Below, piece after piece: positions 34,834 through 51,875 of a DNA stretch of 64,000 nucleotides; the stretch's first letter is position 1; each line of letters opens with the position of its first letter. The stretch lies in contig NZ_BCNV01000005.1 of assembly GCF_001570725.1 (NCBI RefSeq), forward strand, positions 124,001-188,000, written 5' to 3'. Below the pieces are notes generated by a model that worked only from the letters and a program-made list of their open reading frames with translations, ran no database searches and had not been told where the DNA came from. A program made the translations under genes and the position numbers. Origin of the DNA: Paenibacillus amylolyticus. GTDB lineage: Bacteria; Bacillota; Bacilli; Paenibacillales; Paenibacillaceae.

Positions 34834-34931
34834 TTGAAATTCTTTTCCGCCATACTTATAGTGCATATCTAATGCGTTCATCTTACGACTCTGCTGCCTT
34901 AAAGATTTTAACTTTTAAGGAGTGGAGCAAC

Positions 34932-35201
34932 GTGAAATATATTAATGCGGATACAATCTTCCCGGAAGAATTGCTCAAAGAAATACAGCGTTATATCCCC
35001 GGAGGCCTGATCTATATTCCGAGGCCCAAGGATGCCCACAAGAAGTGGGGCGAGAATTCGGGTGGCAGAAGGATTGTCCGGGAGCGGAACGACGAGGTCC
35101 GCAGGCTTTTTGCTGCGGGAACAACCATCGATCAGCTTGCGAAGCAATACTGTTTATCCATCGATAGTATCAAGAAAATTGTGTATTGCAAAAAGGGATG
35201 A
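34932..35201 (+). CDS. Small CD3324-type putative DNA-binding protein
   Basis: 89 residues from GTG 34932, supported by AAGGAG about 9 nt upstream; the frame stays open further up but the earlier codons do not look conserved. Motifs: MKYINADTIFPEELLKEIQ, a central YIPRPKD, and a C-terminal helix-turn-helix-like part (VRRLFAAGTTIDQLAKQYCL; SIDSIKKIVYCK). This matches a widespread family of Firmicute small proteins (CD3324 family) of unknown role, probably transcription-related. Confidence 0.82.
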   Translation: MKYINADTIFPEELLKEIQRYIPGGLIYIPRPKDAHKKWGENSGGRRIVRERNDEVRRLFAAGTTIDQLAKQYCLSIDSIKKIVYCKKG

Positions 35202-36341: not shown

Positions 36342-36935
36342 ATGCGCAAGTTGGCATCTGTGATGGGTACATTATTTCTTTCCGCCGCCATGTTAATGGG
36401 GTGTACACCATCTGAACCAGCGGAAAGCACTGAACCCATAACTCCACCAGTAACGGAACAGCCGAGTGATGTGAGTGATCAGAAGGCGACAGCGGAGGAG
36501 CAGCAACATGCGCTAGAAATGTCGCTGGATTATAAGACAACAGAACTCACCGTGGATGGCAAGGACTATGAGGATACGTTAGAGATGGAAGGGTTATTGG
36601 CCAAAGGGGACACCATGAAGCCATTCCTGACCTCCAGAAACTACGAGGCTTACATGGCTAATCGATATATTGTCTTGCCTCTTCAGGTTGCACACATCGA
36701 ACAAGCGAAGCTGCATCCTGAAAATATACAAACCAAGATCAAAGATAACAAGAGCGACTGGATTCTTGTGGAATACACGCTTGATCTGAAATTTACTGAC
36801 GAGAATGGCAAGGAGTTCAAGTCTATTCCGCTATCGGGCGATATCACCTTTTTGCAGAATCAGGGAGAATGGCGCATTCAGGATGACACGTACAATAGGG
36901 ACGCATTTGCGGACATTATCAATAATTCACTGTAG
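36342..36935 (+). CDS. Lipoprotein of unknown function
   Basis: 197 residues. A lipoprotein signal peptide with lipobox AMLMGC (Cys21) is followed by a Pro/Glu/Thr-rich spacer and a small alpha+beta domain (NRYIVLPLQVAHIEQAKLHP; WILVEYTLDLKFTDENGKEF; WRIQDDTYNRDAFADI). It resembles secreted NTF2-like or DUF-type lipoproteins, but I do not recognise a named family. AAAGGGAGGG precedes the ATG. It is monocistronic. Confidence 0.82.
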   Translation: MRKLASVMGTLFLSAAMLMGCTPSEPAESTEPITPPVTEQPSDVSDQKATAEEQQHALEMSLDYKTTELTVDGKDYEDTLEMEGLLAKGDTMKPFLTSRNYEAYMANRYIVLPLQVAHIEQAKLHPENIQTKIKDNKSDWILVEYTLDLKFTDENGKEFKSIPLSGDITFLQNQGEWRIQDDTYNRDAFADIINNSL

Positions 36936-36959
36936 TCATGAATAAGCTCCTTCATATCA

Positions 36960-36981
36960 GTGCGCACTTCAAAGTGCGTAC
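36960..36981. repeat. Copy 1 of an HxlR-operator-like palindrome
   Basis: GTGCGCACTT and AAGTGCGTAC arms around CA, then TTTTTTTGTGG. About 50 bp of this stretch, including GAATAAGCTCCTT upstream, is nearly the same as the sequence in front of the HxlR gene (copy 2 at 48837). Here it can work as a terminator of the lipoprotein gene, since a T-run follows. Confidence 0.7.
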
Positions 36982-37152
36982 TTTTTTTGTGGCGGCGAAC
37001 CCAGCTAAGCACGCGTCGTCAAAAGGGTCTCATCGCGATGTTAGCTATCGACACCTGCTAGAAATTTTCAGGGTACATTCTCCTTTAATGATGATATTAT
37101 TTGGGTAATCAGCTTACTTATTGCGCTTTTGTAGAATGGGGTTGGGTACATC

Positions 37153-39297
37153 ATGAGGGGGATTCTTCGAGCCGGTTCTCGTAAGGTCTGGCTTTATATC
37201 GTTGTTGCCGTTGTTGTTGGCTTGGTTGCAGGCTATGTCGTCCTCTCTGAGCCGGGCTCTCCTAAGTTTCAAAGTGAAGAAGGCATTCTGGACTTAACGC
37301 AGGTTCAGCTCAGTACGAATCCGCAAAAGTTAACAGGGGAGTGGGCGTTCTACTGGCAAGATCTGCTGTCGCCTGAGAATATGCGGGTTCGTTCGGCAAG
37401 GGAAGGAAATCAGGACCACTGGATTAACATTCCAAGCTCCTGGCTGGGCTACCCGTTAGAAGGTCAGCGGCTGACCGGTACAGGCTATGCAACCTTTGGA
37501 CTGGTCGTTCATCTAAGCGAGCAGGATCGAGATGAGATGCTTGCTCTGCGGCTGCCTAGCATTTTTAATGCGTACAAATTATGGGTCAATGGCGAGCTGC
37601 TGGCAGAAGTTGGTGAGGTTGGTCAGGACAAGCACAGCATGACCCCGCAACTGGAAACAAAGCTGGTGTATTTTCAGCCTGAAAGCGACACGTTAGAGCT
37701 GGTCATGCAAGTATCCAACTTCCAACATCATCGGGGCGGCATTACCAAGGATATCGAGCTGGGTGGCAGTGACGCACTAACGACCAAGACCAATCTGAAT
37801 CTTGCCAGGGATATGTTCATCACGGCAAGTTTGCTAGTGATCGGTTTGTATAATCTGCTGTTGTTCATGCTGCGACGTAAGGATAGAGCTCCGTTATATT
37901 TTGGCCTGTTTACTGTACTGCTTGGTATTCGATCCTTGTTCAACGGCGAGCTTATCTTTACACAATGGTTGCCTCATTTTCCTTGGGAATTGCAGTTCAA
38001 GATCGAATATCTGATTCTTTGCCTCAGCGGTTATATCATCACCATGTATTTTGATTGTATTTTTCCGAATTATGTGTCGCGCTGGTTTCGTCTTGGCACC
38101 CGGATCGTAACTGGTGCATTCTGTATCCTTGTAGTGGTAACCCCTGCAATTATATATACAAAATTTTTGCTGGTCATCGGTGTGATGGTAGTTCTACATA
38201 TGATTTATCTGATGATCGGACTGGTTCAGGCGGCTGTGCGACGTATGGAGGGAGCGCTGATCTTCCTGCTGGTGTCGGTGGTTACTTTGGTCACGGTTGT
38301 CAACGATTTTTTGTATTTTAATGGATGGTCGCTAGTTGGAAATACATCTCCACTTGGCTTATTGATATTTACGATCGCGCAGCTGATTCTGCTGTCTTCG
38401 CGATCTACGAGGACGGCATCGAACGAAGAGAGAATTACACGTGAATTACAGTACGTTAATGACAAGCTGATTGAAATGAATATGAATCTGGAACAGACCG
38501 TTCAGGAACGAACACAGGCCTTATCTACAGTGCATGATGATCTCCAAACCTCGTATGACCGACTGCTTCACTCCGAGCAAGGGAGGAAGAAGCTACTTGC
38601 TTATATTACGCATGATCTGCGTATGCCGTTGTCCAGTATGCTTGGATATGTAGAAGCTATACAGGACAGGGTCAAACCGGAACGCAATGAACAATATCTG
38701 AAGTACATTCGGGAGAACACGATAAGGATTAACCGTATGATCGAGGAGTTGTCCTTCTTGTCTCATTTGGAGACCGGACAAGTCTCGTACCGAATGGAGC
38801 CAGTTCAGATGATTCCTTTCTTGCATGGTTTTTTTGAACAATATGAGTTGGTAGTGCGCGACGCAGGATTAGACTTCATACTGGATATCGGAGATACCGA
38901 GGATAGACGATCTATTTTGCCAGTTGTCGAGATGGATGCGAAAAGAATAGAACAGGCTTTATTTAATCTAGTGTCAAATGCCATGAAGTTCACCTCCAGC
39001 GGGGGGCTGGTGCGTATTGCACTAATTGTGGAAATGGTGAATCATGCTCCCCATGCAGTAATTAGCATACAGGATTCTGGAATGGGTATTCCTCCGGAGC
39101 AGCTTGAGCAAATCTTCGAACGTAATTACAGATATGATCGGCCGGGAATGGGCATAGAGGGCAGTGGACTGGGGCTGGCAATTTGCAGGGAAATCGTACA
39201 AGCGCACGGAGGCATGGTTCGAGCGGAGAGCGACGGCAAGATGGGGGCGACATTCTATGTAACGTTTCCTTGTACGGTGATTGAAGGAAAGGGGTGA
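37153..39297 (+). CDS. 7TMR-DISM sensor histidine kinase
   Basis: 714 residues. An N-terminal helix (13-31) leads to an extracellular DISM-type beta-sandwich (about 45-205; TGEWAFYWQDLL; YKLWVNGELLAEVGE), a seven-helix membrane region (about 220-415), a coiled coil (430-480), HisKA (YITHDLRMPLSSMLG, His487) and HATPase (NLVSNAMKF; DSGMGIPPE; GSGLGLAI). Unlike the two giant kinases in this window, it has no receiver or second kinase module. The regulator gene starts 4 nt after its stop, so the two form a pair. The ribosome site is modest. Its ligand is unknown. Confidence 0.93.
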   Translation: MRGILRAGSRKVWLYIVVAVVVGLVAGYVVLSEPGSPKFQSEEGILDLTQVQLSTNPQKLTGEWAFYWQDLLSPENMRVRSAREGNQDHWINIPSSWLGYPLEGQRLTGTGYATFGLVVHLSEQDRDEMLALRLPSIFNAYKLWVNGELLAEVGEVGQDKHSMTPQLETKLVYFQPESDTLELVMQVSNFQHHRGGITKDIELGGSDALTTKTNLNLARDMFITASLLVIGLYNLLLFMLRRKDRAPLYFGLFTVLLGIRSLFNGELIFTQWLPHFPWELQFKIEYLILCLSGYIITMYFDCIFPNYVSRWFRLGTRIVTGAFCILVVVTPAIIYTKFLLVIGVMVVLHMIYLMIGLVQAAVRRMEGALIFLLVSVVTLVTVVNDFLYFNGWSLVGNTSPLGLLIFTIAQLILLSSRSTRTASNEERITRELQYVNDKLIEMNMNLEQTVQERTQALSTVHDDLQTSYDRLLHSEQGRKKLLAYITHDLRMPLSSMLGYVEAIQDRVKPERNEQYLKYIRENTIRINRMIEELSFLSHLETGQVSYRMEPVQMIPFLHGFFEQYELVVRDAGLDFILDIGDTEDRRSILPVVEMDAKRIEQALFNLVSNAMKFTSSGGLVRIALIVEMVNHAPHAVISIQDSGMGIPPEQLEQIFERNYRYDRPGMGIEGSGLGLAICREIVQAHGGMVRAESDGKMGATFYVTFPCTVIEGKG

Positions 39298-39301
39298 TGA
39301 G

Positions 39302-40000
39302 ATGGACACGCACAAAATCATGATCGTTGATGATGATCCTCATATATGCGAGATTGTGCAGGTGTATTGTGATAGGGAGGGATTTGTCTCCACCTGCAGT
39401 CATAGCGGGTCAGAAGCGATGGAGCTGCTTGCATCGTGTGAGCCGGATTTAATTATACTGGATATATTGTTGGCTAATGAGAACGGTATTGACTGGTGCA
39501 GGAATGCGCGTAATCTCACCAGTGCGCCGATTGTGTTTCTGAGCAGTCAAGAGGAAGACGAAATAAAAATTAGCGCATTGTCCTATGGCGGGGACGATTA
39601 TGTGACCAAACCGTTCAGTCCGGGAGTGCTCATGGCCAAGATCAAGGCTCACCTTCGCAGAGTGTCGACGGGTAGAAGGGAACAACTGCTGGAGTTACCG
39701 GGTTTGACACTGGATTTCTACACGCAGTCCGTCAACACGGGGAGTAAACCTATCTATTTATCGAAAAAAGAGTTCAGTCTGCTGTCCTATATGGCACAAA
39801 ACGTGAATCGTGTCGTTAGTGTCGATACGTTGTTTCAAATCATCTGGGGAATGGAAAGTCTGGAGGATACGAGAACGGTCGCTGTACATATCAGTAATTT
39901 ACGCAAAAAAATTGAGTCTGACCCTGCCGACCCCGAGCGAATCATTACGGTTCGGGGGAGCGGATATATGCTGGTTTCTAACAGTACATCACAAGCATGA
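39302..40000 (+). CDS. OmpR-family response regulator
   Basis: 232 residues. Receiver with IVDDD, phosphoacceptor Asp54 (LIILDILLANENG) and Lys in YVTKPF, then an OmpR/PhoB winged helix (LSKKEFSLLSYMAQN; DTRTVAVHISNLRKKIE; VRGSGYML). ATG 39302 follows AAAGGGG at 8 nt. It is the partner of the DISM kinase upstream. Tandem GTTTTC/ATTC-type repeats in the shared promoter block of the next two genes are candidate binding sites. Confidence 0.94.
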   Translation: MDTHKIMIVDDDPHICEIVQVYCDREGFVSTCSHSGSEAMELLASCEPDLIILDILLANENGIDWCRNARNLTSAPIVFLSSQEEDEIKISALSYGGDDYVTKPFSPGVLMAKIKAHLRRVSTGRREQLLELPGLTLDFYTQSVNTGSKPIYLSKKEFSLLSYMAQNVNRVVSVDTLFQIIWGMESLEDTRTVAVHISNLRKKIESDPADPERIITVRGSGYMLVSNSTSQA

Positions 40001-40029
40001 ATATAGCAGTAAGGGTGGTAGTCTATTAT

Positions 40030-40078
40030 AAATGGGAAAATGGCGTTGGAGCAGTACCTGACGCTATTGGCCCATTTT
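40030..40078 (+). terminator. Terminator of the kinase-regulator operon
   Basis: AAATGGG / CCCATTT base stem with ATGGCGT / ACGCTAT inside, then TTTTG. Confidence 0.75.
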
Positions 40079-40405
40079 TGTTTTTTCCACTAGCTTCGTA
40101 ATCGACTCAAGATATTGAATTCCTCAACACCAGTCTGCGCTTTTCCATCCTCGTCAAAATGATGTGCCATCTCTCCGAAGAATTAAACGATCCAATACGC
40201 ACGGATTTAAAGTTTTCTTTAGGTTTCTCAAGTAGGATGATCCATCATGATAAAATCACATTGGTCGATATAACGACATATTTCATCAAATTGCAACTGA
40301 TTATTAGCTAAGAGGACGTTCATTCGAGCCGGATCAAACGATAATACGTGAAGAAATGGTTGTCTTGCTGTCCCGCATTAGTACTTGAAGAAGGAAGTGG
40401 CTTCG
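40079..40405. other. Leader and promoter region of the MinD-like gene
   Basis: No gene is supported. It holds the first copy of a shared promoter block (40209-40256) and a 149-nt leader whose sequence partly resembles that of the giant SLH gene (ACGACATA, then a Thr/Leu-free TTG-AACTGAT-AG stretch). Confidence 0.5.
40209..40256 (+). promoter_or_regulatory. Shared promoter block, copy 1
   Basis: AAAGTTTTCTTTA (40209-40221), 24 nt of unlike sequence, then CATGATAAAAT (40246-40256), which contains an extended -10 (TGATAAAAT). The same two elements with exactly the same 24-nt spacing stand before the giant SLH gene at 41372-41419. The upstream element lies where an OmpR-type activator would bind near -35. 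Confidence 0.65.
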
Positions 40406-41215
40406 ATGGCACGAGTTATATGTATCACATCAGGGAAAGGTGGAGTTGGCAAGACAACGGTCACGGCTAATCTCGGGACTGCCCTTGCCTTATCGGGGAG
40501 CAGCGTTTGCCTGATCGACGCTGATTTTGGATTGAGAAATCTGGATATTCCGCTTGGTTTGGGCAATAGGGTAAGGTATCATATTTCCGATTTTCTGACG
40601 GGTCAATGTGCTTTACATCAAGTGATCGTCAAAGATAAGCGAATCAGTACCTTGTCCTTTATCTCCTGTAGTAACGATGCGGTGCATCACGATGATCCGC
40701 AAGTTTTTGGCGAGGTTGTGCAGCAAATAGCCCAGAACTATGATTATGTGCTGATCGATTCGCCGGCAGGCATTGAAAATGGATTCTGGAATGCAGCTTT
40801 GGCAGCAGATGAGGCTATTGTCGTTACTACGCCTCATCGTACATCGCTTCAGGATGCGGATCGCGTAATCGGATTATTAGAAGATATGATTCCGGCTCCG
40901 CCACAGCTCATCATTAATATGGCCGACGGACAGGAAGCCCGTTCGGCAACGGTAAAGATGCAGGATATTATCGATATTCTCAATATCGGTGTGATTGGCG
41001 TGATCCATGCCGATGTAGAAATTATACGTTCCGTACATAAGGGCATCCCGATTGCGCTTAATCCCGAGTTTGAAAGCGGGCTGCGCTTCAGGCATATCGC
41101 CCACAATGTGGCGAAGAATCAGCAGGAGCCTTTTATCTCAGTGAAACCCAAGAGGCATATTAGTATTTTTTCACTTCCTCAAAGACTGCGTTGGGGGAAG
41201 AGCAGTTCGTTATAG
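40406..41215 (+). CDS. MinD/ParA-like ATPase
   Basis: 269 residues. Deviant Walker A (SGKGGVGKTT, residues 9-18, with the signature Lys11), switch I (LIDADFGLRNLDI), Walker B-like YVLIDSPAG and the MinD-specific INMADGQEARSA region. It matches MinD across its length and ends in a short amphipathic, basic tail (ISIFSLPQRLRWGKSS) that may bind membrane. MinC or MinE genes are not present, and this is not the usual mre-min locus, so it is a paralogue. ATG 40406 is chosen over TTG 40385 as it starts the conserved MARVICITSGKGG. It shares a promoter type with the next gene, a giant surface protein; a role in positioning or exporting that protein is speculation. Confidence 0.88.
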   Translation: MARVICITSGKGGVGKTTVTANLGTALALSGSSVCLIDADFGLRNLDIPLGLGNRVRYHISDFLTGQCALHQVIVKDKRISTLSFISCSNDAVHHDDPQVFGEVVQQIAQNYDYVLIDSPAGIENGFWNAALAADEAIVVTTPHRTSLQDADRVIGLLEDMIPAPPQLIINMADGQEARSATVKMQDIIDILNIGVIGVIHADVEIIRSVHKGIPIALNPEFESGLRFRHIAHNVAKNQQEPFISVKPKRHISIFSLPQRLRWGKSSSL

Positions 41216-41371
41216 TCGATTCTGCTAGGTGAATCGTTCACACGCGAATCATCTGGAATGGAATGCAGACTAGCTTTAAAATTCATGAAAAATTGTGGTG
41301 TGGGAGTTACCTTCCCTACGCCGCTATTTTTGATGTCATTGATGTTCTCACTTGCAAGTAGTTGCTTACTT

Positions 41372-41419
41372 AAAGTTTTCTTTATAATTCACAAGCGCCC
41401 CTATCTCGCATGATAAAAT
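41372..41419 (+). promoter_or_regulatory. Shared promoter block, copy 2
   Basis: AAAGTTTTCTTTA (41372-41384) and CATGATAAAAT (41409-41419), 24 nt apart, as at 40209-40256. The sequence between differs almost completely, so the two ends are conserved for function rather than by recent copying. Confidence 0.65.
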
Positions 41420-41460
41420 ACGGAAGAAAAAACGACATAATTTGCATGTATTGGTGTCAC

Positions 41461-41544
41461 AATTCGACTGCGACTGATAAGAAAGGTCGGTGAACGAATT
41501 CAATCTGTAAAGTTGGCATTATCGTACCTTAAAGCAGTCGAATT
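41461..41544 (+). promoter_or_regulatory. Long-range inverted repeat in the giant SLH gene leader
   Basis: AATTCGACTG (41461-41470) pairs perfectly with CAGTCGAATT (41535-41544), 43 nt before the start codon. TTTTTT follows at about 41555. It could be an attenuator or a stability element. Confidence 0.35.
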
Positions 41545-41587
41545 TTGGACGGTCTTTTTTAGTTTGATCTATACATAGAAGGGATGA

Positions 41588-44500
41588 ATGAAAGTGAAGA
41601 AAGTAAGACAGGGATGGAAGGTGAGCCGGCAGATCCTGATGTGGATGCTGGTGATCAGCTTAGTAGTTTCTGCCGTGCCCCTATTACCAGCACAATCGGC
41701 AGTAGCGGCTGAACTGCCGATGCAGATGACAAAAGTAACCACATCCAGTGGATTCCAGGATGTGAGTCCCACCGACTGGTTCTATGATGCAGTCGTCCAT
41801 GTGCAGGAGAAGGGCATATTCAGCGGAACGAACGCGAGTAGCTTCTCTCCTAAGGGGACAATGACACGTGCCATGTATGTGACGGCACTTGGACGGATGG
41901 CCGGAGTCGATGCCGGGGCGTACTCCACTTCGAGCTTTGCCGATGTACAGGCGGGCAGCTGGTATGCGCCATATGTCGAATGGGCGGTTAAGAAGGGAAT
42001 TACCGATGGCACGGGGGATCGGAAATATTCGCCGGATGCTACCGTATCTCGGGAGCAAATGGCGACGATGACGTTGCGGTATTTCGAAAGCGAACAGATC
42101 CCTTATCAGACCGAGAATCCGGTCACGACAGAGCCGGGCGATCTCGGGGATGTATCGCCTTGGGCGGCTGACGCGGTCATCAAGCTGTGGCAAGCCGGTG
42201 TGTTCACCGGGGACGAAAAGGGGAACTTCAATCCGCGTGCACAAGCGAGTCGCGCGGAAGCAGCGGTTCTCTTCATGCGCAACAACGCGGTTGTAGAGCC
42301 GTGGAAAAATCAGAATCAAACGCCGGTGACGCCTACTCCAACACCTACACAACCGGGAACTCCAACGGTAAACCCAACACCAACACCCGGCGGTAATAAT
42401 GGTGGCGTAACACCGACGGAACCGGTGACACCAGCGCCAACACCTGGAGGTAACCCCGGAACGGGTTCCACCGCGTATACACTAACGTTTGATAGCAACG
42501 GTGGCTCGGCGGTCGCTGCGCAGACGGTACGACCAGGCCAGGTGCTCAATAATCTTCCTGCTCCAACGCGGGATGGATATATATTTCAAGGGTGGTTTAC
42601 AGATAGTGATCTTTCACTCATCTTTGCAAGTGGCAGTACCTTGACCGCAGATACGAAATTATATGCAAAGTATACGGATCGCGTGGACAGTGCTGTACAA
42701 AGTACGCCTAGCTACTCGGTACTGGATGTTGCGACGAACTATACGATCGCTGTACAAGATACATCGGGCAGCCTAACAGCATCTGAGGTCAAAGCTCGCA
42801 TGACGTTTCAGGATACAGCCAATCCTGAATTTGAGGGGATCACCGTCACGGGAGGGAACGGGAAGTTCACGGTAGCGTCCGCAGTAGAAGGTGGTCATTT
42901 CGTAGAAGGCAACACGTATGAACTTACGTTGACAGACGACAACTTGACCTTCCAAGGCCAAGACGCGACGACGAGAATCTATGTGTTTGGCGTTGCGAAG
43001 CAAGAAATCATGGACATCCCGCTGCATACGAGCATGGTCTACCTGTCCTTTGCGGATGTCACGGATATGATGCTGAACGGCACGGAGGTTGGTTCGGCAG
43101 CCATTCCTGTAGTCGCCACAACGGTAGGTGGTAGTGGAAATACGCTGGCTGAAGCCAATGCAAGCAGCGGTACGTTCGTATATAACGGAAGCACCGAGGT
43201 TGAAGCTGGCGATACCGTCGCCATCTATCAAGGGGTTCGCCCTGATCTGCGCACGTTAGAAACAACCGGTGAAGACAATGGCGATATCGCCTATGTCCAT
43301 ATCTCAGCGGTGAACGATACGACCTACACCTATGGTCAAGCAGATATCAATCAAGTATTGTTCAAACCGGATGTGCTGCCAGTGAGTGTAGATGCAGACA
43401 CAGACAATGATCCTGATAACCATTCCATCACGGTTGAGCAGACTGTGATGAACTATAGTGACAGCATGTATGAGCCACTCGGCTTGGATGAGCTGACGAC
43501 AGTGGATGTAGGCGACTTTATCGGGTTCTATGAGGGTGGATTTGCCCAATCGGATTTTGTGGCCACTGGTTACGGGCGCATCACGTCAATTACGCCTGCG
43601 GCAGAAATGAATATCATTACGTATACCGATGCTACGCTAGATGACGTCACGAGTGCGTTCGACCTCTATCAGAAGCAAGCCATTGAAGGCGAAGAGTTGT
43701 TGTCGAAAGACCAGATCGCACAGCTCGAAGAACAGATTGAGGAGCAAGCCTTAGATAGCGGGTTCGTTGATCAAGCGGCGGAATACCTGTCAGAACTGGC
43801 GATGGAGACAGAGGAGATTCAGAAGATCAATGCTCAGGCATCACGTGCCCTCTCTGGTGACAGTGGTCGGGTAAGTGTGGAGAATCTGACCGTTGTTGCT
43901 AAACTTGGCACAAAACTGAAGAACATTAACGGCCGATCCTCCGGTGTGAGTGCTACACTGCAAGTGGGCGCGGATATTGTTGTGAATGTTAGTGAAGATA
44001 GCGATCTGATCATCCATATGACCAGTACATTCGTTCAGGAGATGAGCCTGGATCTCGGTGTGAATTCGGAGACGAAGTGGCATTGGTATACCATTTCGAC
44101 ATTTTTGGGCGATATCCCGATCTTCCCAGTCATTGATGATTATGTAATCACAGCGAATCTGGATGCTTATAGCTATACCGGAATGAACATCACGGCAGAG
44201 ATGGCTCTTGTCGAACCAGATAAGTTGGAAGCTGCGCTGACGAACTGGCTGGATGCGAAGACCTCTGGCAAATTTAGTCAGGTGCGGAACATTGCAACAG
44301 AGATTGAAGCGGTCATGGAGGGTGTGCAAGATACCGCCGTAGACGCGGAATCATTGAAGGAACAGTATCAAGAGATGTTGAGTCAGAAAACGGAGTGGGT
44401 TCCATTAATCAAGAAGACGCTCTTTGAAAAGAGCGTGCGTGTGGCACTGGGGATTATTGAAGTCCAATTCAAAGCTGAGTTTGTAGTTAGCGCGCAGGTG

Positions 44501-47500
44501 AACTTAACCATCGGGGCAGATTTCTATTATAAGATGGCTAAGCGCTACTCAGTGACCTTACGTGTATTGAGTTTCAGTGGTTCGAGTAATACGGTTAGCT
44601 TGCCAGAAGACGGCGATTACCAGTTTACCTTCTATGTGATGGGGACGCTCGGTTTGCGAGCCGGTATTCATATGGAAGTTCAAGCGGGAATTGGCAGTGT
44701 TGATTTGAATAGTATCGGAATTGCTGTAGAACCAGGCGTGTATGTGAATCTGTGGGGTTACTTCTACTATCAGCTAAAAAATATTAGCGGAGTGAAGACG
44801 ACGAAGTCTTTAGGGGCCCTGTTCGTCGAGATCGGCATATATTTGGAGGTGGCACTTGGCGCCCAATTAGGCGATGGAGCGCTCTCGGATAGCGTAGAAC
44901 TGGCGGATGAAGAGTGGCCACTGTATACGATTGGGGAAGAAAAGAACGTCTATGACTTCGCCTATCCACAGGATGATGAGCTTGGGTTGCTCTTTAGAGG
45001 AAATGCTGACTCTCGCAATTTACCAGAGTCATTTTTCAAGATGAATACTCTTAATTTGAAAACAGGTATAACGACGGAAGAAACATATGATAGTTCACAA
45101 TTTGATATTCAATTAAGCGGTGATAACTTCAGATTTTTGCTAGATAAAAAAGGGGTACAAGTTAGAAATAAGACGATTCCATCGAGTGCGGCTAAATTAG
45201 TTATTACTTGGAAGGGAGCGCCGATGTCATTCACGTCAACTCCGATTCAACGTACGATTCCGCTGAACTGGATTAAAAGTGCGGATGGTGATCTAACGAT
45301 CGAATTCGATCCAAGTAATGGAGAACCATCTGAGATTGTGACTGCTGCCTTTAATGCAGCCATTCAAGTGAAAAACAAAGTCCCAGTAAATCCGGGATAT
45401 ACTTTCGATGGCTGGTATACTTCTGCCTATGGTGGTACAAAAGTGGACATCCCCAACAGGATGCCTACAGGTATTCCAAAACTGTATGCACGTTGGATTG
45501 TGAACACAGACACACCGTACAAAGTCAATCATTATTTGATAGATGCAAACTCACAGAAAATATCTGTGCTTACGGATTCCGAAACGAAGACAGGAACAAC
45601 AAATACAGAGATTCGTATAACCTCTAACAAATATAGAGATCGTGGTTATAATGAAGTTGCAGTAAAAGGTATCTATATTAAGGGTGATGGTTCAACGGTT
45701 GTTAATATTTATTACAAACCGATAAGTCGGACATTAACTTTTAATTTAGGTTATGAGGGAGCACCGGAAGGTAAACTAACGGATCTAATTTATAAAAATA
45801 TCGTTAATCGAATTCCAGTTCCGACAAGAACGGGATATACGTTTGCGGGTTGGTCACCGAATGTCCCAAATACGATGCCAACGGATAACGCGACTTATAC
45901 CGCAAACTGGACAGTCAGGGATGATACGCCTTACAAAGTCGTATACTTGCAGCAAAATATAGGGCATCCAACCTACACGGTTGCAGATGTAGAAACGCAT
46001 CGGGGTATAACCAATACGAGGGTAACTCTGCCTAAAGAATCACTCAGGTCTTACGAAGGATTCACTGTAGATACAGCTCTTCCGGGAACTGTGTTAGATG
46101 CCGATATTGCCAGCGACGGTACAACGGTTCTACGGGTGTACTATACGCGCAATACGTATAAGTTGACCATAGATTACAATGACTTGAATACACCTGCAAA
46201 GGAGATAGATGTACAATACGGATCAACGACTTCATTACATTTCGGTGATCCAACTTGGGCAGGTCATGAATTCAAGGGGTGGTCAGCTGTCCCAGCGGTA
46301 ACCATGCCTGCACAAGATATCGAGTATATCGCTCAGTGGGACATAGACCAGCATACTGTCAAATTTAACAGTAATGGTGGAGTGGAAGAAGTTCCTGATC
46401 AAACGTTAGCTTATGGAAAAACTGTCATCGCACCAGTCACACCAACGAAGAAAGATCATGCGTTCGGAGGTTGGTATAGCGACAGTGATCTTACGCAACC
46501 TTACAATTTCGCAATGTCGGTGACGAGTAATATTACGTTGTACGCGAAGTGGATGCGTGGGTATACGATGAGCATCAACAGTAATGGTGGGACAGAGATA
46601 TCCGATCAGGCGGTCTACGAAGGAACAAAACCTGCGGCACCTCAACCACCAACGCGGGAGGGATATGTGTTCGGAGGTTGGTTTAGCGACAAAGATTTGA
46701 CAAAGGCATATAATTTCACAACCGAAATCGTGAATGGTGATATCACCTTGTATGTGAAATGGGTAGTTGCTCAAAAAATACAGTATAGAGTTCGCTTCTA
46801 TGATGAACAAAAGACTGAGCCAATCGATCAGCTGGTAACTGAAGGTGGTGTGGCAGTGGCACCTGAGCCACTACCGAAACCAAATCATACGTTCTTGTAC
46901 TGGAGAGATAAAGAGAAGCGGAACCAAGCATTTGACTTCACAACACCAATAATGAGGAATTATGAGATACACACGGCATGGATACTGAATAGCTATGAGG
47001 TAAGCTTCATAAGCGACGGCAAGAAGTTGAGTAGTCAGTCTGTGGACCATCAACAATCTGCTAAGGAGCCTTCAAGTCCAACGCGCGAAGGTTATGTGTT
47101 TAAAGGCTGGTACAGTGACAGCGATCTGACGATACTCTACGATTTCAGGGCTCAGGTGACGAGTGAAATTTCGTTGTATGCGAAGTGGGCACCTAAGTTC
47201 ACCGTGAGATTTGATAGTAAAGGCGGCTCAGCAGTAAATGCCGGGACAGTGGAGTATAATGCTAAAATTGCGGTGCCTACATCTCCGACGCGGACAGGTT
47301 ATGAATTCGGTAATTGGTATAGTGATGAAGATTTGACCAGTGTCTATAATTTTGAGACACCTGTAACGACAAATCTCACGTTGTATGCGAAATGGACACC
47401 CGTCTTTACAATAATCTTCGACCATAAGGATGGTTCAGCGGTGACAGATCAGCAGCCGGTGCTGGAAGGGGAAGTGGTTTCTGAACCTGCCGCACCACAT

Positions 47501-48226
47501 CGAGAAGGTTATACCTTCATCGGTTGGTATAGCGATGAAGATTTGACCAATGCTTATCATTTTGAGACACCGGTGACGACGAACATCACATTGTATGCAA
47601 AATGGAAGGTCTTATATACGGTAACTTTACGTATAGCAACTGAAGTGGTTAAAAAGTCAGTGGCAGAGGGCGATGTGGTTACTAGACCTGACGCCGTTCC
47701 TCCAGATAAAAATGGATGGGTACTCTACTGGTGGTACGTAAAGGGTAAGCCTTGGGCAGATGCTTACAATTTCGAGACGCCAGTGACAGGAAACTTTGAG
47801 TTAGACGCATATTTTGGACGTCCCTATACGGTGAACTTCGAGTCTAATGGTGGTTCAGCGGTTGCTTCTCAGACCCTCCTTGGAGGTATGGATAAAGTCC
47901 AAGTACCTGAACCTCCAGTGAAACCAGGATTTGTGTTCGAAGGTTGGTATAGAGATACACGTCATACCAGTGCCTATGATTTTGAGACAAATATGTCAAA
48001 TTTAGGAATTGTTTCTTATACTTACACGTTGTATGGAAAGTGGCTGCCTCTCGACAATAATGAGATCAACAATAGTGACGGGAATTTCCTAACAGATGAT
48101 AAGACGGTGGCGGAAGACAGTGTTGTTTCGCTAGCTTTTAAATCAGTAATGGATTCCTATATATATGATGGTTGGTATGCAGACCAAAAGAGAACGATTC
48201 CCATTAACTTTATGACACACCAGTGA
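41588..48226 (+). CDS. Giant SLH-anchored surface protein with InlB-type B-repeats (3' end frameshifted)
   Basis: 2,212 residues. Signal peptide (about 1-38; VISLVVSAVPLLPAQSAVAA), three N-terminal SLH domains (FQDVSPTDWFYDAV; FADVQAGSWYAPYV; LGDVSPWAADAVIKL; about 55-235), a Thr/Pro/Gly linker, one InlB B-repeat (about 295-360), a long central region (365-1215) of beta-rich unknown sequence, then about a dozen more InlB B-repeats and two MucBP-like inserts to the end. SLH would fix it to the cell wall, and the repeat stalk would project outward. The last repeat is cut: after FMT the frame shifts and stops at 48226, while the other frame reads TPVMSKRTIYEFW and stops at 48258, just as a complete repeat would. 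Probable adhesin or matrix protein. Confidence 0.92.
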   Translation: MKVKKVRQGWKVSRQILMWMLVISLVVSAVPLLPAQSAVAAELPMQMTKVTTSSGFQDVSPTDWFYDAVVHVQEKGIFSGTNASSFSPKGTMTRAMYVTALGRMAGVDAGAYSTSSFADVQAGSWYAPYVEWAVKKGITDGTGDRKYSPDATVSREQMATMTLRYFESEQIPYQTENPVTTEPGDLGDVSPWAADAVIKLWQAGVFTGDEKGNFNPRAQASRAEAAVLFMRNNAVVEPWKNQNQTPVTPTPTPTQPGTPTVNPTPTPGGNNGGVTPTEPVTPAPTPGGNPGTGSTAYTLTFDSNGGSAVAAQTVRPGQVLNNLPAPTRDGYIFQGWFTDSDLSLIFASGSTLTADTKLYAKYTDRVDSAVQSTPSYSVLDVATNYTIAVQDTSGSLTASEVKARMTFQDTANPEFEGITVTGGNGKFTVASAVEGGHFVEGNTYELTLTDDNLTFQGQDATTRIYVFGVAKQEIMDIPLHTSMVYLSFADVTDMMLNGTEVGSAAIPVVATTVGGSGNTLAEANASSGTFVYNGSTEVEAGDTVAIYQGVRPDLRTLETTGEDNGDIAYVHISAVNDTTYTYGQADINQVLFKPDVLPVSVDADTDNDPDNHSITVEQTVMNYSDSMYEPLGLDELTTVDVGDFIGFYEGGFAQSDFVATGYGRITSITPAAEMNIITYTDATLDDVTSAFDLYQKQAIEGEELLSKDQIAQLEEQIEEQALDSGFVDQAAEYLSELAMETEEIQKINAQASRALSGDSGRVSVENLTVVAKLGTKLKNINGRSSGVSATLQVGADIVVNVSEDSDLIIHMTSTFVQEMSLDLGVNSETKWHWYTISTFLGDIPIFPVIDDYVITANLDAYSYTGMNITAEMALVEPDKLEAALTNWLDAKTSGKFSQVRNIATEIEAVMEGVQDTAVDAESLKEQYQEMLSQKTEWVPLIKKTLFEKSVRVALGIIEVQFKAEFVVSAQVNLTIGADFYYKMAKRYSVTLRVLSFSGSSNTVSLPEDGDYQFTFYVMGTLGLRAGIHMEVQAGIGSVDLNSIGIAVEPGVYVNLWGYFYYQLKNISGVKTTKSLGALFVEIGIYLEVALGAQLGDGALSDSVELADEEWPLYTIGEEKNVYDFAYPQDDELGLLFRGNADSRNLPESFFKMNTLNLKTGITTEETYDSSQFDIQLSGDNFRFLLDKKGVQVRNKTIPSSAAKLVITWKGAPMSFTSTPIQRTIPLNWIKSADGDLTIEFDPSNGEPSEIVTAAFNAAIQVKNKVPVNPGYTFDGWYTSAYGGTKVDIPNRMPTGIPKLYARWIVNTDTPYKVNHYLIDANSQKISVLTDSETKTGTTNTEIRITSNKYRDRGYNEVAVKGIYIKGDGSTVVNIYYKPISRTLTFNLGYEGAPEGKLTDLIYKNIVNRIPVPTRTGYTFAGWSPNVPNTMPTDNATYTANWTVRDDTPYKVVYLQQNIGHPTYTVADVETHRGITNTRVTLPKESLRSYEGFTVDTALPGTVLDADIASDGTTVLRVYYTRNTYKLTIDYNDLNTPAKEIDVQYGSTTSLHFGDPTWAGHEFKGWSAVPAVTMPAQDIEYIAQWDIDQHTVKFNSNGGVEEVPDQTLAYGKTVIAPVTPTKKDHAFGGWYSDSDLTQPYNFAMSVTSNITLYAKWMRGYTMSINSNGGTEISDQAVYEGTKPAAPQPPTREGYVFGGWFSDKDLTKAYNFTTEIVNGDITLYVKWVVAQKIQYRVRFYDEQKTEPIDQLVTEGGVAVAPEPLPKPNHTFLYWRDKEKRNQAFDFTTPIMRNYEIHTAWILNSYEVSFISDGKKLSSQSVDHQQSAKEPSSPTREGYVFKGWYSDSDLTILYDFRAQVTSEISLYAKWAPKFTVRFDSKGGSAVNAGTVEYNAKIAVPTSPTRTGYEFGNWYSDEDLTSVYNFETPVTTNLTLYAKWTPVFTIIFDHKDGSAVTDQQPVLEGEVVSEPAAPHREGYTFIGWYSDEDLTNAYHFETPVTTNITLYAKWKVLYTVTLRIATEVVKKSVAEGDVVTRPDAVPPDKNGWVLYWWYVKGKPWADAYNFETPVTGNFELDAYFGRPYTVNFESNGGSAVASQTLLGGMDKVQVPEPPVKPGFVFEGWYRDTRHTSAYDFETNMSNLGIVSYTYTLYGKWLPLDNNEINNSDGNFLTDDKTVAEDSVVSLAFKSVMDSYIYDGWYADQKRTIPINFMTHQ
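45280..48226 (+). repeat. Array of InlB B-type repeats
   Basis: Modules of about 65-70 residues share the pattern F-NGG, PTREGYxFxGWYSDxDLT, YNFETPVTxNITLYAKW. I count about twelve, diverged in DNA, with two MucBP-like segments (starting at about 45510 and 45925) between the first ones. The modules nearest the C-terminus are the most alike. Confidence 0.85.
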
Positions 48227-48294
48227 TGTCAAAGCGCACGATATATGAGTTTTGGTAGCACAGAACGTGAAACAAGACTGTCTTATATGGCACT

Positions 48295-48343
48295 AAAAAA
48301 GCAGGTGAAAAAAACAATTTGTTTTTCTTCACCTGCTTTTTTT
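48295..48343 (+). terminator. Terminator of the giant SLH protein gene
   Basis: AAAAAAGCAGGTGAA and TTCACCTGCTTTTTT form a long stem with a weaker A/T middle. It is symmetric and lies before the convergent HxlR gene, so it likely acts in both directions. Confidence 0.9.
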
Positions 48344-48459
48344 ATTAATAACTCAACCTTCGGTGCGACCAACCTTCGGTTGCGAAGTTTAGTAGGTGGA
48401 AATCCTGCTTGGGAAGCATTGTTCTGGATGAAGCCCTTCGCACTTATCAACCCAATTCA

Positions 48460-48813
48460 CTATAATTCATGCAACGGTTGTGTCTCAGGTACGTTATACA
48501 CACCCCACTTGCAGATTTCCTCCAGAATGGGCATTAGACTCTTGCCTCGGGGGGTTAAGGAATACTCTACTTTGGGCGGAGTCTGATCATACTCCACTCG
48601 TTTTATCACACCTTCACGTTCCAAATGGTTCAGTTGAGAGGTTAATACCTTGTACGTGATCCCGGGGACACGCCTTTTGAGTTCTCCGTAGCGTGTGACC
48701 CCATGAAAGGCAAGTTGATACATGATTTTCATCTTCCACTTTCCGCCGATAATGGATAGGGTGTAGTCGAATGGGGTGAGTATTTCCGCTGTTTTTTTAC
48801 TCGGGTTATCCAT
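48460..48813 (-). CDS. HxlR-family winged-helix regulator
   Basis: 117 residues, complete HxlR domain (SIIGGKWKMKIMYQLAFHG; RYGELKRRVPGITYKVLTSQL; VEYSLTPRGKSLMPILEEI). A cysteine, as found in redox-sensing members, is absent from the N-terminus; the only Cys is near the C-terminal end (EICKWG). The start ATG 48813 has GGAGC upstream. It is divergent from a flavin-reductase-like gene, and a 22-bp palindrome in the gap is the probable operator for both. Confidence 0.92.
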   Translation of the reverse strand: MDNPSKKTAEILTPFDYTLSIIGGKWKMKIMYQLAFHGVTRYGELKRRVPGITYKVLTSQLNHLEREGVIKRVEYDQTPPKVEYSLTPRGKSLMPILEEICKWGVYNVPETQPLHEL

Positions 48814-48836
48814 CACGAATAAGCTCCTTTATGCAG

Positions 48837-48858
48837 GTACGCACTTCAAAGTGCGTAC
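48837..48858. promoter_or_regulatory. HxlR operator candidate (copy 2 of the palindrome)
   Basis: GTACGCACTT and AAGTGCGTAC are perfect arms around CA, 24 nt upstream of the HxlR start. HxlR dimers bind such palindromes. A copy with one arm change is found 12 kb away at 36960-36981, along with flanking sequence. Confidence 0.7.
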
Positions 48859-48967
48859 TTTTTTTGTGGTGAACAAGTGTATATTCTTATACCAACTATA
48901 TGTTTCCCATGGGGCTTTGTAAACCGAAGGAGCTGCTCAGGGACAGAGTAGAAAGGAGCGAGTGTCA

Positions 48968-49709: not shown

Positions 49710-51578
49710 TTAGAAATTGGTTCGCCCAAACGTAGCGTCACTCTTCACCGTCGAGCTGCTAGATGCGTTGATGGCATCGAGCTGTAACACGTAATCATAA
49801 TGCCGGATGTAATAGCCGGGCTGACTATACGATTGAAGGGATACTTTGGTGCTATCAGCCCAACCAGGACCGCTTAGGAACGTAGCATCTCCTTTGTAGG
49901 CAGCGGTGTCGGCATAAGCTTCAAGTACAATTTTGTTGCTGGTGTTGCGCTTCAAGAAGTAGCCTGGGAAGTTAACAGACTCCAGTGAAATTCCCGTGGA
50001 GCTGGCAAGGCCCGGTACGACGCGGAACTGTGAATCCAGAACAGGAGAGACGTTGGCATCCACGCGAGCGGTGTAATTGGCATGCCGGATGTATCGATCC
50101 GGATAGTTGTGTGAACTGAACCGGCTGTAACCTGTGGCTTCAGGTGTTGCAGGACCCAACATTTTGACCTCGTGCAGGGTTGGGGTGTACCAGTTCCCCG
50201 GATTATTCCACAAGACGGCGTTCACCATATTGATCCGTACATAACGGGCGGTGAAATGCACGGCATCCGTGGTGAAACCATAGGTCAGATTGTTGGTGCG
50301 ATCCAAGGTGGAGTAATTAACACCATCGTTGCTAATCTCAATTTTGTATTTGTAGTATCCTTCAGAACCTTTATACATAAACCAGGAGGTGTCGATCTCG
50401 GTGATCGTCTTTGGTGCGCCGAAGTCCACTTGCCACCAAGCAGGCCAGCTATTGGAGGAAGCCACCCATGAAGTCTGGTAGTTGCCATCATTGACGTTGG
50501 ATGCAGACGATCCGGAGGCTGTGGAGATAGCGGTAGCTGTTTTGCCTTGGGCATGGTTGACGAGAGCAGGCGGTGTTACTGCACCCGTTACTGCATCGAT
50601 ATTCCATGTGGTATACCACTCCAGTGATGCTGTTCCGTTCGAATCATTCAAGGTTAGCGGCAACCAGATATGTTTGTGCTCTCCGAGGTTCATCGGATTC
50701 CAGCGATCCCCCATGTAGATGTAAGATGTGGTGTTGCTGCCTGTAATCGTGGCAATATCATGTATCTGCGAACCGAAGGCAGATGGATTGCCATATGGCG
50801 TAAGCGCAGTCCATGAGCCCGTCATGGAAGTTGCTGTAGCATAAGCACCCTGATTCGGATACCAGCCAGCGGCTTGAGAGGTGAAGAGATAGTAACGGTT
50901 TCCTTTTTTCACAACAGCAGGTGCTTCACGGTAGGCGTTCTCGAACAGCCAGCCCTCGAAGGATTGTATTCCGGTGTAACTTGCATTCATTTTAAAAATA
51001 GCCATCGTATCATTGGCACCGCCATTTTTGCGTGAAGCAGTAACCAGATAACCTGTGCCATCGGTATCAACAAAGACCGTCATGTCACGGGATTCATAAT
51101 TGAGTGGGCGGAAGCTGCCCTCATAGGTGAATTTGCCATTCGGGGTATTGCTTGTTGCGACCGCTACACGCCCAAGGTTGTAGTCTGTACCGTTCTCATA
51201 GTGTGCCCAGAGCACATACTGGTTGGTGGAGGCGTTATAGATGACTTTGGGGCGTTCGATCTTACTGGAGGCCAGCTCGGTTGCGGAATCTTTCGTCAGG
51301 ATGGCATTGCTGAAAGTCCAGTTCTTCAGATCGGTGGAGGTGTAGACGTTCACGCTATCGAACCTGCCACCTACCGCATGTTCACCGTACAGATAATACG
51401 TCGAGCCTACCTGCAGAATGTTGCCGCTGTTCGCATGGATGGGGTTGCCTGCGGTGTCGAGCCAATCGGTGCCATTGGTTATTGTGACACTTGCTGCGCT
51501 TGTCCGTTCAGGATGAAGTCCAAACAGGGTGAACGTGAGTGCGAAGACCAGAAACCAAACCGCTTTCCTGTTACCCAT
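49710..51578 (-). CDS. Secreted GH43-family glycosidase with CBM32 and CBM42 domains
   Basis: 622 residues. Signal peptide (KAVWFLVFALTFTLFGLHPERTSAA), then a five-blade GH43-like catalytic domain (HANSGNILQVGSTYYLYGEH; IERPKVIYNASTNQYVLWAH; SRDMTVFVDTDGTGYL; YREAPAVVKKGNRYYLFTS), as in the exo-beta-1,3-galactanase group. A discoidin-type CBM32 follows (about 350-480; WWQVDFGAPKTITEI) and then an AbfB-type CBM42 (about 490-622; RYIRHANYTARVD; YYIRHYDYVLQLD) that binds arabinose side chains. Predicted target: arabinogalactan outside the cell. ATG 51578 has GGGAGG 8 nt upstream; GTG 51587 overlaps that site. Confidence 0.9.
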   Translation of the reverse strand: MGNRKAVWFLVFALTFTLFGLHPERTSAASVTITNGTDWLDTAGNPIHANSGNILQVGSTYYLYGEHAVGGRFDSVNVYTSTDLKNWTFSNAILTKDSATELASSKIERPKVIYNASTNQYVLWAHYENGTDYNLGRVAVATSNTPNGKFTYEGSFRPLNYESRDMTVFVDTDGTGYLVTASRKNGGANDTMAIFKMNASYTGIQSFEGWLFENAYREAPAVVKKGNRYYLFTSQAAGWYPNQGAYATATSMTGSWTALTPYGNPSAFGSQIHDIATITGSNTTSYIYMGDRWNPMNLGEHKHIWLPLTLNDSNGTASLEWYTTWNIDAVTGAVTPPALVNHAQGKTATAISTASGSSASNVNDGNYQTSWVASSNSWPAWWQVDFGAPKTITEIDTSWFMYKGSEGYYKYKIEISNDGVNYSTLDRTNNLTYGFTTDAVHFTARYVRINMVNAVLWNNPGNWYTPTLHEVKMLGPATPEATGYSRFSSHNYPDRYIRHANYTARVDANVSPVLDSQFRVVPGLASSTGISLESVNFPGYFLKRNTSNKIVLEAYADTAAYKGDATFLSGPGWADSTKVSLQSYSQPGYYIRHYDYVLQLDAINASSSSTVKSDATFGRTNF

Positions 51579-51875
51579 TACATACACCTCCCGAGAGATA
51601 TCAGCTTAAATATAGCGTTCTCAAATCAATTTCATAACACACTAAGTAAAGGGAGTATAAAATTGATTCTTTCATTTATATTTTAGTTGTGCCATACACT
51701 TTTTCAAGTGAACAATCCATCCATTGCTGAACAAACCGGCATTTCAACGGGGCTGAGCGGTGAGAGCGGAGGAATTGTGCTGAAATATCATGTGCAATGA
51801 TGTGGAGAGAATCAGGTACACGCGCTAAAATGAGGAGAGATTGATTTCCACAACAGGGTTGGAGGGTGAACCGTC

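Follow-up and report, generated by a model that had tools for sequence, protein, structure and literature searches.

A giant SLH surface-protein gene and an extra MinD-family ATPase gene of Paenibacillus amylolyticus have a promoter block in common that tracks a DISM-type sensor kinase

Within the window, a 64,000-nucleotide stretch of contig NZ_BCNV01000005.1 of Paenibacillus amylolyticus, a two-component pair is followed by an extra MinD-family ATPase gene and a gene for a giant surface protein, the last two each preceded by a conserved promoter block (Table 1). A first-pass annotation of this DNA had named a DISM kinase, an OmpR-type regulator, a MinD paralogue and a 2,212-residue SLH/InlB-repeat protein, and domain searches found all four; the HisKA/HATPase kinase stands beside a regulator with a receiver and a winged-helix domain, as in an OmpR-family two-component system. 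Also as annotated, neither minC nor minE adjoins the MinD paralogue, and matching blocks with a common 15-mer and ATGATAAAAT are present upstream of both effector genes. The earlier observation is right, and stronger than it was stated, but the system had been drawn to 48258, and the giant gene stops at 48226. The regulator and MinD-like genes are given here from ATG codons (39302 and 40406), where the ORF listing has TTG starts (39281 and 40385). An Rfam search of positions 36900-48900 returned nothing at the gathering score. Reading the locus as a defence system was dropped because PADLOC matches were only weak and partial (the kinase ATPase domain and the Walker A region of the MinD-like protein), with none in the giant. 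The leader of the giant gene contains a 14-nt inverted repeat (93%; 41458-41471 and 41534-41547) that has no Rfam match. Upstream of the locus, positions 34872-35198 encode a small HTH-like protein, with a Mor match below the cut-off, that 10 of the other 13 giant-bearing genus genomes also have.

Table 1. Features of the locus, in positions of the window.
Feature	Coordinates	Strand	Basis
DISM-type sensor histidine kinase, 714 aa	37153..39297	+	Pfam 7TMR-DISM_7TM 221-415, HisKA, HATPase_c
OmpR-family response regulator, 232 aa, putative block binder	39302..40000	+	Response_reg, Trans_reg_C; kinase-block co-occurrence
Promoter block, MinD-like gene	40206..40256	+	TTTAAAGTTTTCTTTA 40206-40221, -10-like ATGATAAAAT 40247-40256; 16/16 letters in 11/11 genomes
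Extra MinD-family ATPase, 269 aa, altered C-terminal tail	40406..41215	+	TIGR01968 over cut-off; separate clade, 100/100
Promoter block, giant gene	41370..41419	+	TTAAAGTTTTCTTTA 41370-41384, -10-like ATGATAAAAT 41410-41419; 15/16 in 11 MinD genomes
Giant SLH/InlB-repeat surface protein, 2,212 aa	41588..48226	+	Signal peptide (by eye), three SLH, core, InlB-type repeat end

Three SLH stretches (Pfam, E 4.1e-29) mark the giant as an SLH-anchored protein; the start of its signal peptide is basic, as judged by eye, and it contains nine Flg_new (InlB-type) stretches. It has such repeats in common with internalins and other InlB-repeat proteins, and differs from internalins in being SLH-anchored, in having no leucine-rich repeat among its Pfam matches and in scoring well short of the cut-offs of internalin models (InlA, 200.7 against 1600). 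Structure prediction of core residues 305-1183 from an alignment of 15 sequences reached a mean pLDDT of only 37.4 and a pTM of 0.24. When one giant per MinD-bearing genome was compared (n = 11, with the second giant of G087 left out), mean identity was 90% in the signal-peptide/SLH part, 81% in the core and 60% in the repeat end, and mean dS was 0.57, 0.73 and 1.53 in the same three parts and 0.21 in MinD. The giants of G000 and G078 are ~99% identical over residues 1-250; identity is mostly 55-98% through the core, falls to about half in the repeats and ends at <20% over the last 250 residues. The giant and its relatives are mosaics: the anchor is nearly identical, the core has diverged, and the repeat end is very variable, with a high synonymous divergence. 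Thus the exposed end varies or is exchanged, and the cytosolic genes stay steady. Another large SLH protein at the cell surface is SlhA of P. alvei (1335 aa), whose knockout abolishes swarming and impairs biofilm formation (PMC3776848), which fits a surface-lifestyle role for the giant; the abstract of that paper is silent on a kinase, a regulator, MinD and InlB repeats.

Both blocks contain TTAAAGTTTTCTTTA, and in each of them the first letter of ATGATAAAAT lies 40 nt downstream of that of TTAAAG. Exact copies of the 15-mer occur in the 6.76 Mb genome only at the MinD-like and giant promoters. Allowing one mismatch adds three places. With up to two allowed, the reversed control is the commoner of the two (59 matches versus 36), so that only the exact 15-mer is informative. 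A general promoter scan gave 19 sites against a shuffle mean of 21.8, and neither conserved block was among those listed. Scored for a direct repeat of the kind that OmpR-family operators have near the -35 region, the block is best fitted by a period of 11 (6.66 of 11 on average), with 12 close behind (6.14). For a consensus, 54 of 57 sites were kept and clustered to 35 non-redundant blocks (the sites in L158, L159 and L160 were left out because no same-direction gene lies nearby), and TGnTAnAnT occupies either of two neighbouring positions in 26 of the 35 and was not found in nine.

Across genomes, the block tracks the kinase. The kinase was scored as present where one of the best two candidates per genome matched at E <= 1e-150, and was so found in 84 of 394 family genomes. 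Within the genus (75 genomes), the exact 15-mer occurs in 17 of 18 kinase-positive genomes, the exception being G076, versus two of 57 kinase-negative ones (Fisher p 1e-13, kinship ignored); the reversed control occurs in 1/18 and 9/57, respectively. Among 174 family genomes outside the genus, the 15-mer occurs in 29 of 33 kinase-positive genomes, the other four having no exact copy, versus 18 of 141 kinase-negative genomes (p 1e-16, kinship again ignored), and since the reversed control occurs in 14/141 of the latter (5/33 of the former), the rate of the 15-mer in kinase-negative genomes is near chance. At the locus itself, the block lies upstream of MinD in all 11 genomes (16/16 letters) and upstream of the giant in the same 11 (15/16), and it also precedes the giant in G096, Cohnella sp. 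SGD-V74, Cohnella sp. WQ 127256, C. phaseoli and Saccharibacillus sacchari (14-16 of 16 letters). Within 520 nt upstream of the giant no block was found in G079, G060 and Saccharibacillus sp. O23; G079 and G060 have a block site ~700 nt upstream. We infer that the block acts as an operator of the kinase-regulator pair, with the regulator as its binder being the simplest reading. Co-regulation of the giant and the MinD-like gene is well supported, and we consider it highly probable.

Other genes also lie downstream of the block. In kinase-positive genus genomes, 34 sites were found, 11 before MinD, 15 before a core-bearing giant, seven before other frames (same-direction reading frames within about 700 nt downstream of the block) and one before none. 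The block stands ~166 nt before a 2,291-aa frame in G010 and G077 and a 1,626-aa frame in G083, genomes that have neither the giant core nor MinD; before a frame that runs off the contig in G060 and a broken-up one in G024; and before the orthologue of a 625-aa gene (49710-51587 in the window) at 661 nt in G080 and 328 nt in G081. Sites without a same-direction frame downstream are one on contig 2 of G011 and the two of the kinase-negative genus genomes. The 2,291-aa protein under the block in G077 (L152 1748-8620) has zero Pfam matches at E 0.001. A further 15 block sites lie in regions around kinases of other genera. Five of these are directly before SLH genes (41-406 nt), two of which are core-bearing giants, and one is separated by small frames from a 1,133-aa SLH gene. 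One site precedes a 688-aa secreted-looking frame, two the kinase gene, and three other genes or none. The remaining three have a flagellin-like gene (745-908 aa) 1.4-1.8 kb downstream (L136, L140, L150; flagellin identity confirmed by Pfam in L136 only), with a short frame between that we take to be csrA-like. The SLH part has a match in 13 of 20 regions around kinases, three of them ending early at contig ends. The regulon of the kinase and the block may link surface proteins and motility.

Conservation of the four-gene order, which had been proposed as a check of the first-pass annotation, was supported within the genus. The giant core, counted in whole genomes, occurs in 14 of 75, and 11 of the 14, including that of the window, keep the order kinase, regulator, MinD, giant. 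G079 has the kinase, regulator and giant plus the block, without MinD, and in G060 and G096 the giant has no adjoining kinase, regulator or MinD, the kinase match lying ~35 and 17 kb off on the same contig. A scan of named genomes gave 12 loci with most of the core, six of them on contigs that match, by length, contigs already counted. The other six belong to three Cohnella, two Saccharibacillus and P. agaridevorans, whose locus is truncated by the start of its contig. The kinase and regulator are downstream of the giant in Cohnella sp. SGD-V74 and C. phaseoli, and S. sacchari has a kinase, two regulators and the giant. At the locus of Cohnella sp. WQ 127256 the regulator is present and a kinase match is absent from the stretch, while Saccharibacillus sp. 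O23 has only distant kinase and regulator matches. MinD is absent from all five Cohnella and Saccharibacillus giant loci. The co-occurrence of kinase, regulator and giant without MinD indicates that MinD is accessory, and these loci suggest an older unit of kinase, regulator and giant that MinD joined in a Paenibacillus lineage. The claim that the four genes form one system therefore stands in part. For it speak the order in 11/14 genomes, the common block and the fact that in three genera the MinD clade is found close to giant SLH genes; against it, the system is not obligate, as kinase, regulator and giant occur without MinD in G079, two Cohnella and S. sacchari, 84 of the 394 family genomes carry the kinase, and further genes have the block upstream of them.

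Three further observations concern the loci themselves. The second regulator gene of S. sacchari (L082 8163-8858) sits where Paenibacillus has MinD. Two giants stand in tandem in L065/L066 (G087) and in L081 (Cohnella sp. WQ 127256). In G245, a genome of another genus, L072 8613-10549 contains pieces of kinase residues 1-318 (79-82% identical) and then a frameshifted MinD (~85%), and both the regulator and the giant are absent from this stretch; the decayed remnant suggests past horizontal transfer of the locus.

The MinD-like protein scores 257.7 bits against TIGR01968 (minD_bact; curated cut-off 212.9). Because the same genome has a separate mreB-mreC-mreD-minC-minD cluster (gene names assigned from sequences), the MinD of the locus is an extra copy. 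With the window's protein as query at E <= 1e-66, 16 of the 394 family genomes had such a copy; 11 of them belong to the genus, four to g24 and one to g32. A search with the g32 MinD, in which the best six candidates per genome were scored, gave 17 genomes with two matches at E <= 1e-60, namely the same 16 and G240; in both searches, extra MinDs diverged beyond the E cut-offs escape detection. A second, extra MinD in G240 was rejected, both of its copies scoring as canonical and the genome being listed as 10% contaminated. One of the 16 is the frameshifted, decayed copy of G245 (L072), and 15 are intact. In an unrooted tree, the 15 intact extra MinDs and 17 canonical MinDs split at 100/100, with a long branch for G386, and the extra MinDs do not group with the canonical MinDs of the same bacteria.

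Across six aligned extra MinDs, K11, G12, K16 and D40 are invariant, as is the deviant Walker A; roles for G12, K16 and D40 of MinD are described in the excerpted text of PMC13246001. The extra and canonical groups differ at 38 positions that are conserved within each, and 7 further columns carry a gap in one of the two. The membrane helix of other MinDs is made up of their last residues (PMC6771821 and PMC13246001, in excerpt). In the extra MinDs, the canonical C-terminal tail is replaced by a basic stretch and an aromatic motif, e.g. IFSLPQRLRWG or LFSFSKGLRWG; the tail is shorter in G002 and G028, and that of G386 resembles neither type. Tail amphipathicity, taken as hydrophobic moment, did not exceed that of shuffles in the extra MinD or in the canonical tail, so this test is powerless. 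Over the 11 genus genomes, the dN/dS of the extra MinD is ~0.23, indicating purifying selection (six of the 11 kinases were included in the dN/dS figure). A PDB sequence search returned known relatives only, with the MinD-type entry 4v03 at E 1.5e-55 versus FleN (5j1j) at E 6.3e-26.

None of the 15 intact extra MinDs is more than three genes away from a giant SLH gene, and the neighbourhoods are of three types. In the 11 MinD-bearing genus genomes, all of which also carry the giant, the extra MinD is directly upstream of it. In g24, the extra MinD follows a same-strand NAGPA/metallophosphatase/SLH giant of ~2,050-2,100 aa (length taken from open frames), with no gene between them in L071, one in L069 and two in L070. 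In g32 (L073), it is flanked on one side by a DISM hybrid kinase and a BTAD-type regulator and on the other by a 1,369-aa Big_2/fn3/SLH giant, the gaps being 7, about 180 and 85 nt. No match to the window-type kinase at E <= 1e-150 was found in G181, G185, G190 and G386, and the tie between MinD and giant is thus independent of that kinase. The g24 giant family occurs in 86 of 394 genomes, and MinD adjoins it in three only, the query and its two closest relatives; together with the MinD-less loci above, this indicates that giant export does not need the extra MinD. SLH matches number 102 in this genome, 53-82 across the three from g24 and 150 or more in G386, and with domains this common the neighbourhood alone is moderate evidence. 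By a rough estimate, not a computed one, a random gene would lie beside a giant SLH gene ~1% of the time, which would make three neighbourhood types unlikely by chance, in a pattern that was spotted after the fact.

These genes could work together as follows. The DISM kinase would sense a signal and phosphorylate the OmpR-type regulator, which would bind the block upstream of the -10 element at the two promoters and so jointly switch on the giant, an SLH-anchored wall protein, and a dedicated ATPase of the MinD family. Like other MinD-type ATPases, the latter would cycle with ATP between cytosol and membrane, and it would confine where, or at how many sites, the giant is exported or anchored. 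A surface-protein regulon with an added positioning-type ATPase that limits export or anchoring of the giant may be what the locus encodes, a reading that we hold tentatively and that takes the role of the ATPase from knowledge of its family. Such a role would agree with the spatially controlled secretion or assembly suggested in the first-pass annotation. For ParA/MinD ATPases, gene neighbourhood implicates cargos, and many are orphans (PMC10241942, in excerpt); the extra MinD would be a further family member encoded beside a possible cargo, of a type, a giant wall protein, that the excerpted text does not name. It is possible, if more doubtful, that a distinct MinD clade was recruited at giant SLH loci in three genera to set the place of export or anchoring or the number of sites, and that in Paenibacillus it came under a dedicated DISM kinase-regulator pair.

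The MinD gene could instead be a passenger that inserted near a giant SLH gene with the local type of promoter and is functionally unlinked to the giant. Its patchy distribution (11 of 75 genus genomes, and missing from otherwise intact loci), the commonness of SLH genes and the decayed remnant in G245 (L072) fit such an origin, but the gene has its own conserved copy of the block and is under purifying selection in 11 genomes, and the same clade lies near giant SLH genes in three neighbourhood types, which leaves this account unlikely. A block identical in type to that of the giant is also what a feedback element would bear, and the ATPase might bind the OmpR-type regulator or the kinase as a FleN/FlhG-like brake that caps regulon output and so gauges the amount of surface protein produced. 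FlhG/FleN ATPases, which set flagellar number and place, FleN also acting on a regulator, are likewise MinD-superfamily ATPases tied to a surface structure, though the cargo of the extra MinD would be a wall-anchored protein; another ATPase of this genome, a 303-aa frame at C1:1178143, is presumably FlhG. FleN, named as an antiactivator in PDB 5j1j and 8pb9, is a sequence relative of the extra MinD, and other genera carry the block upstream of csrA-like and flagellin genes. However, the protein is nearer to MinD-type entries (4v03, 1.5e-55) than to FleN (5j1j, 6.3e-26), and G181, G185, G190 and G386 have its clade close to giants without a kinase match at E <= 1e-150; we regard a brake as unlikely.

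A role in division or cell shape, in which the extra MinD would compete with canonical MinD for MinC or MinJ and cause, e.g., long or chained cells, is more improbable still. The protein passes the curated MinD equivalog cut-off and, like the MinD of the Bacillus-type MinC-MinD-MinJ system, keeps the ATPase core, with the deviant Walker A and the equivalents of G12, K16 and D40. Unlike that MinD, it belongs to a separate clade, is encoded without an adjacent minC, ends in another C-terminal tail and has a promoter block in common with a surface protein; minC does not travel with it, and the 38 substitutions and 7 gap columns relative to canonical MinD include the tail.

Among the matches listed, mostly in excerpt, from the literature on MinD/ParA ATPases, S-layer/SLH proteins and Paenibacillus DISM kinases, we found no description of a kinase-regulator-MinD-giant system. 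To our knowledge, where Gram-positive membranes release very large wall proteins is largely an open question. If a MinD-type ATPase shares its switch with a giant, the question of the export site becomes experimentally tractable, and the locus hints at a new job for the well-known MinD family. Independent of MinD, the block provides a ready regulon for an uncharacterised DISM kinase of 84 of 394 family genomes and ties this kinase to giant surface proteins, as well as to the flagellin genes of some genera. Hybrid kinases of ~1,020-1,040 aa are likewise encoded near giant SLH proteins (L148 1494-10975, L073 5080-14625 and L132 14285-17338), with DISM over the cut-off in L148 and L073 and just under it in L132, and with a BTAD-type regulator in L148 and L073; the pairing of DISM kinases with giant wall proteins may be a wider one.
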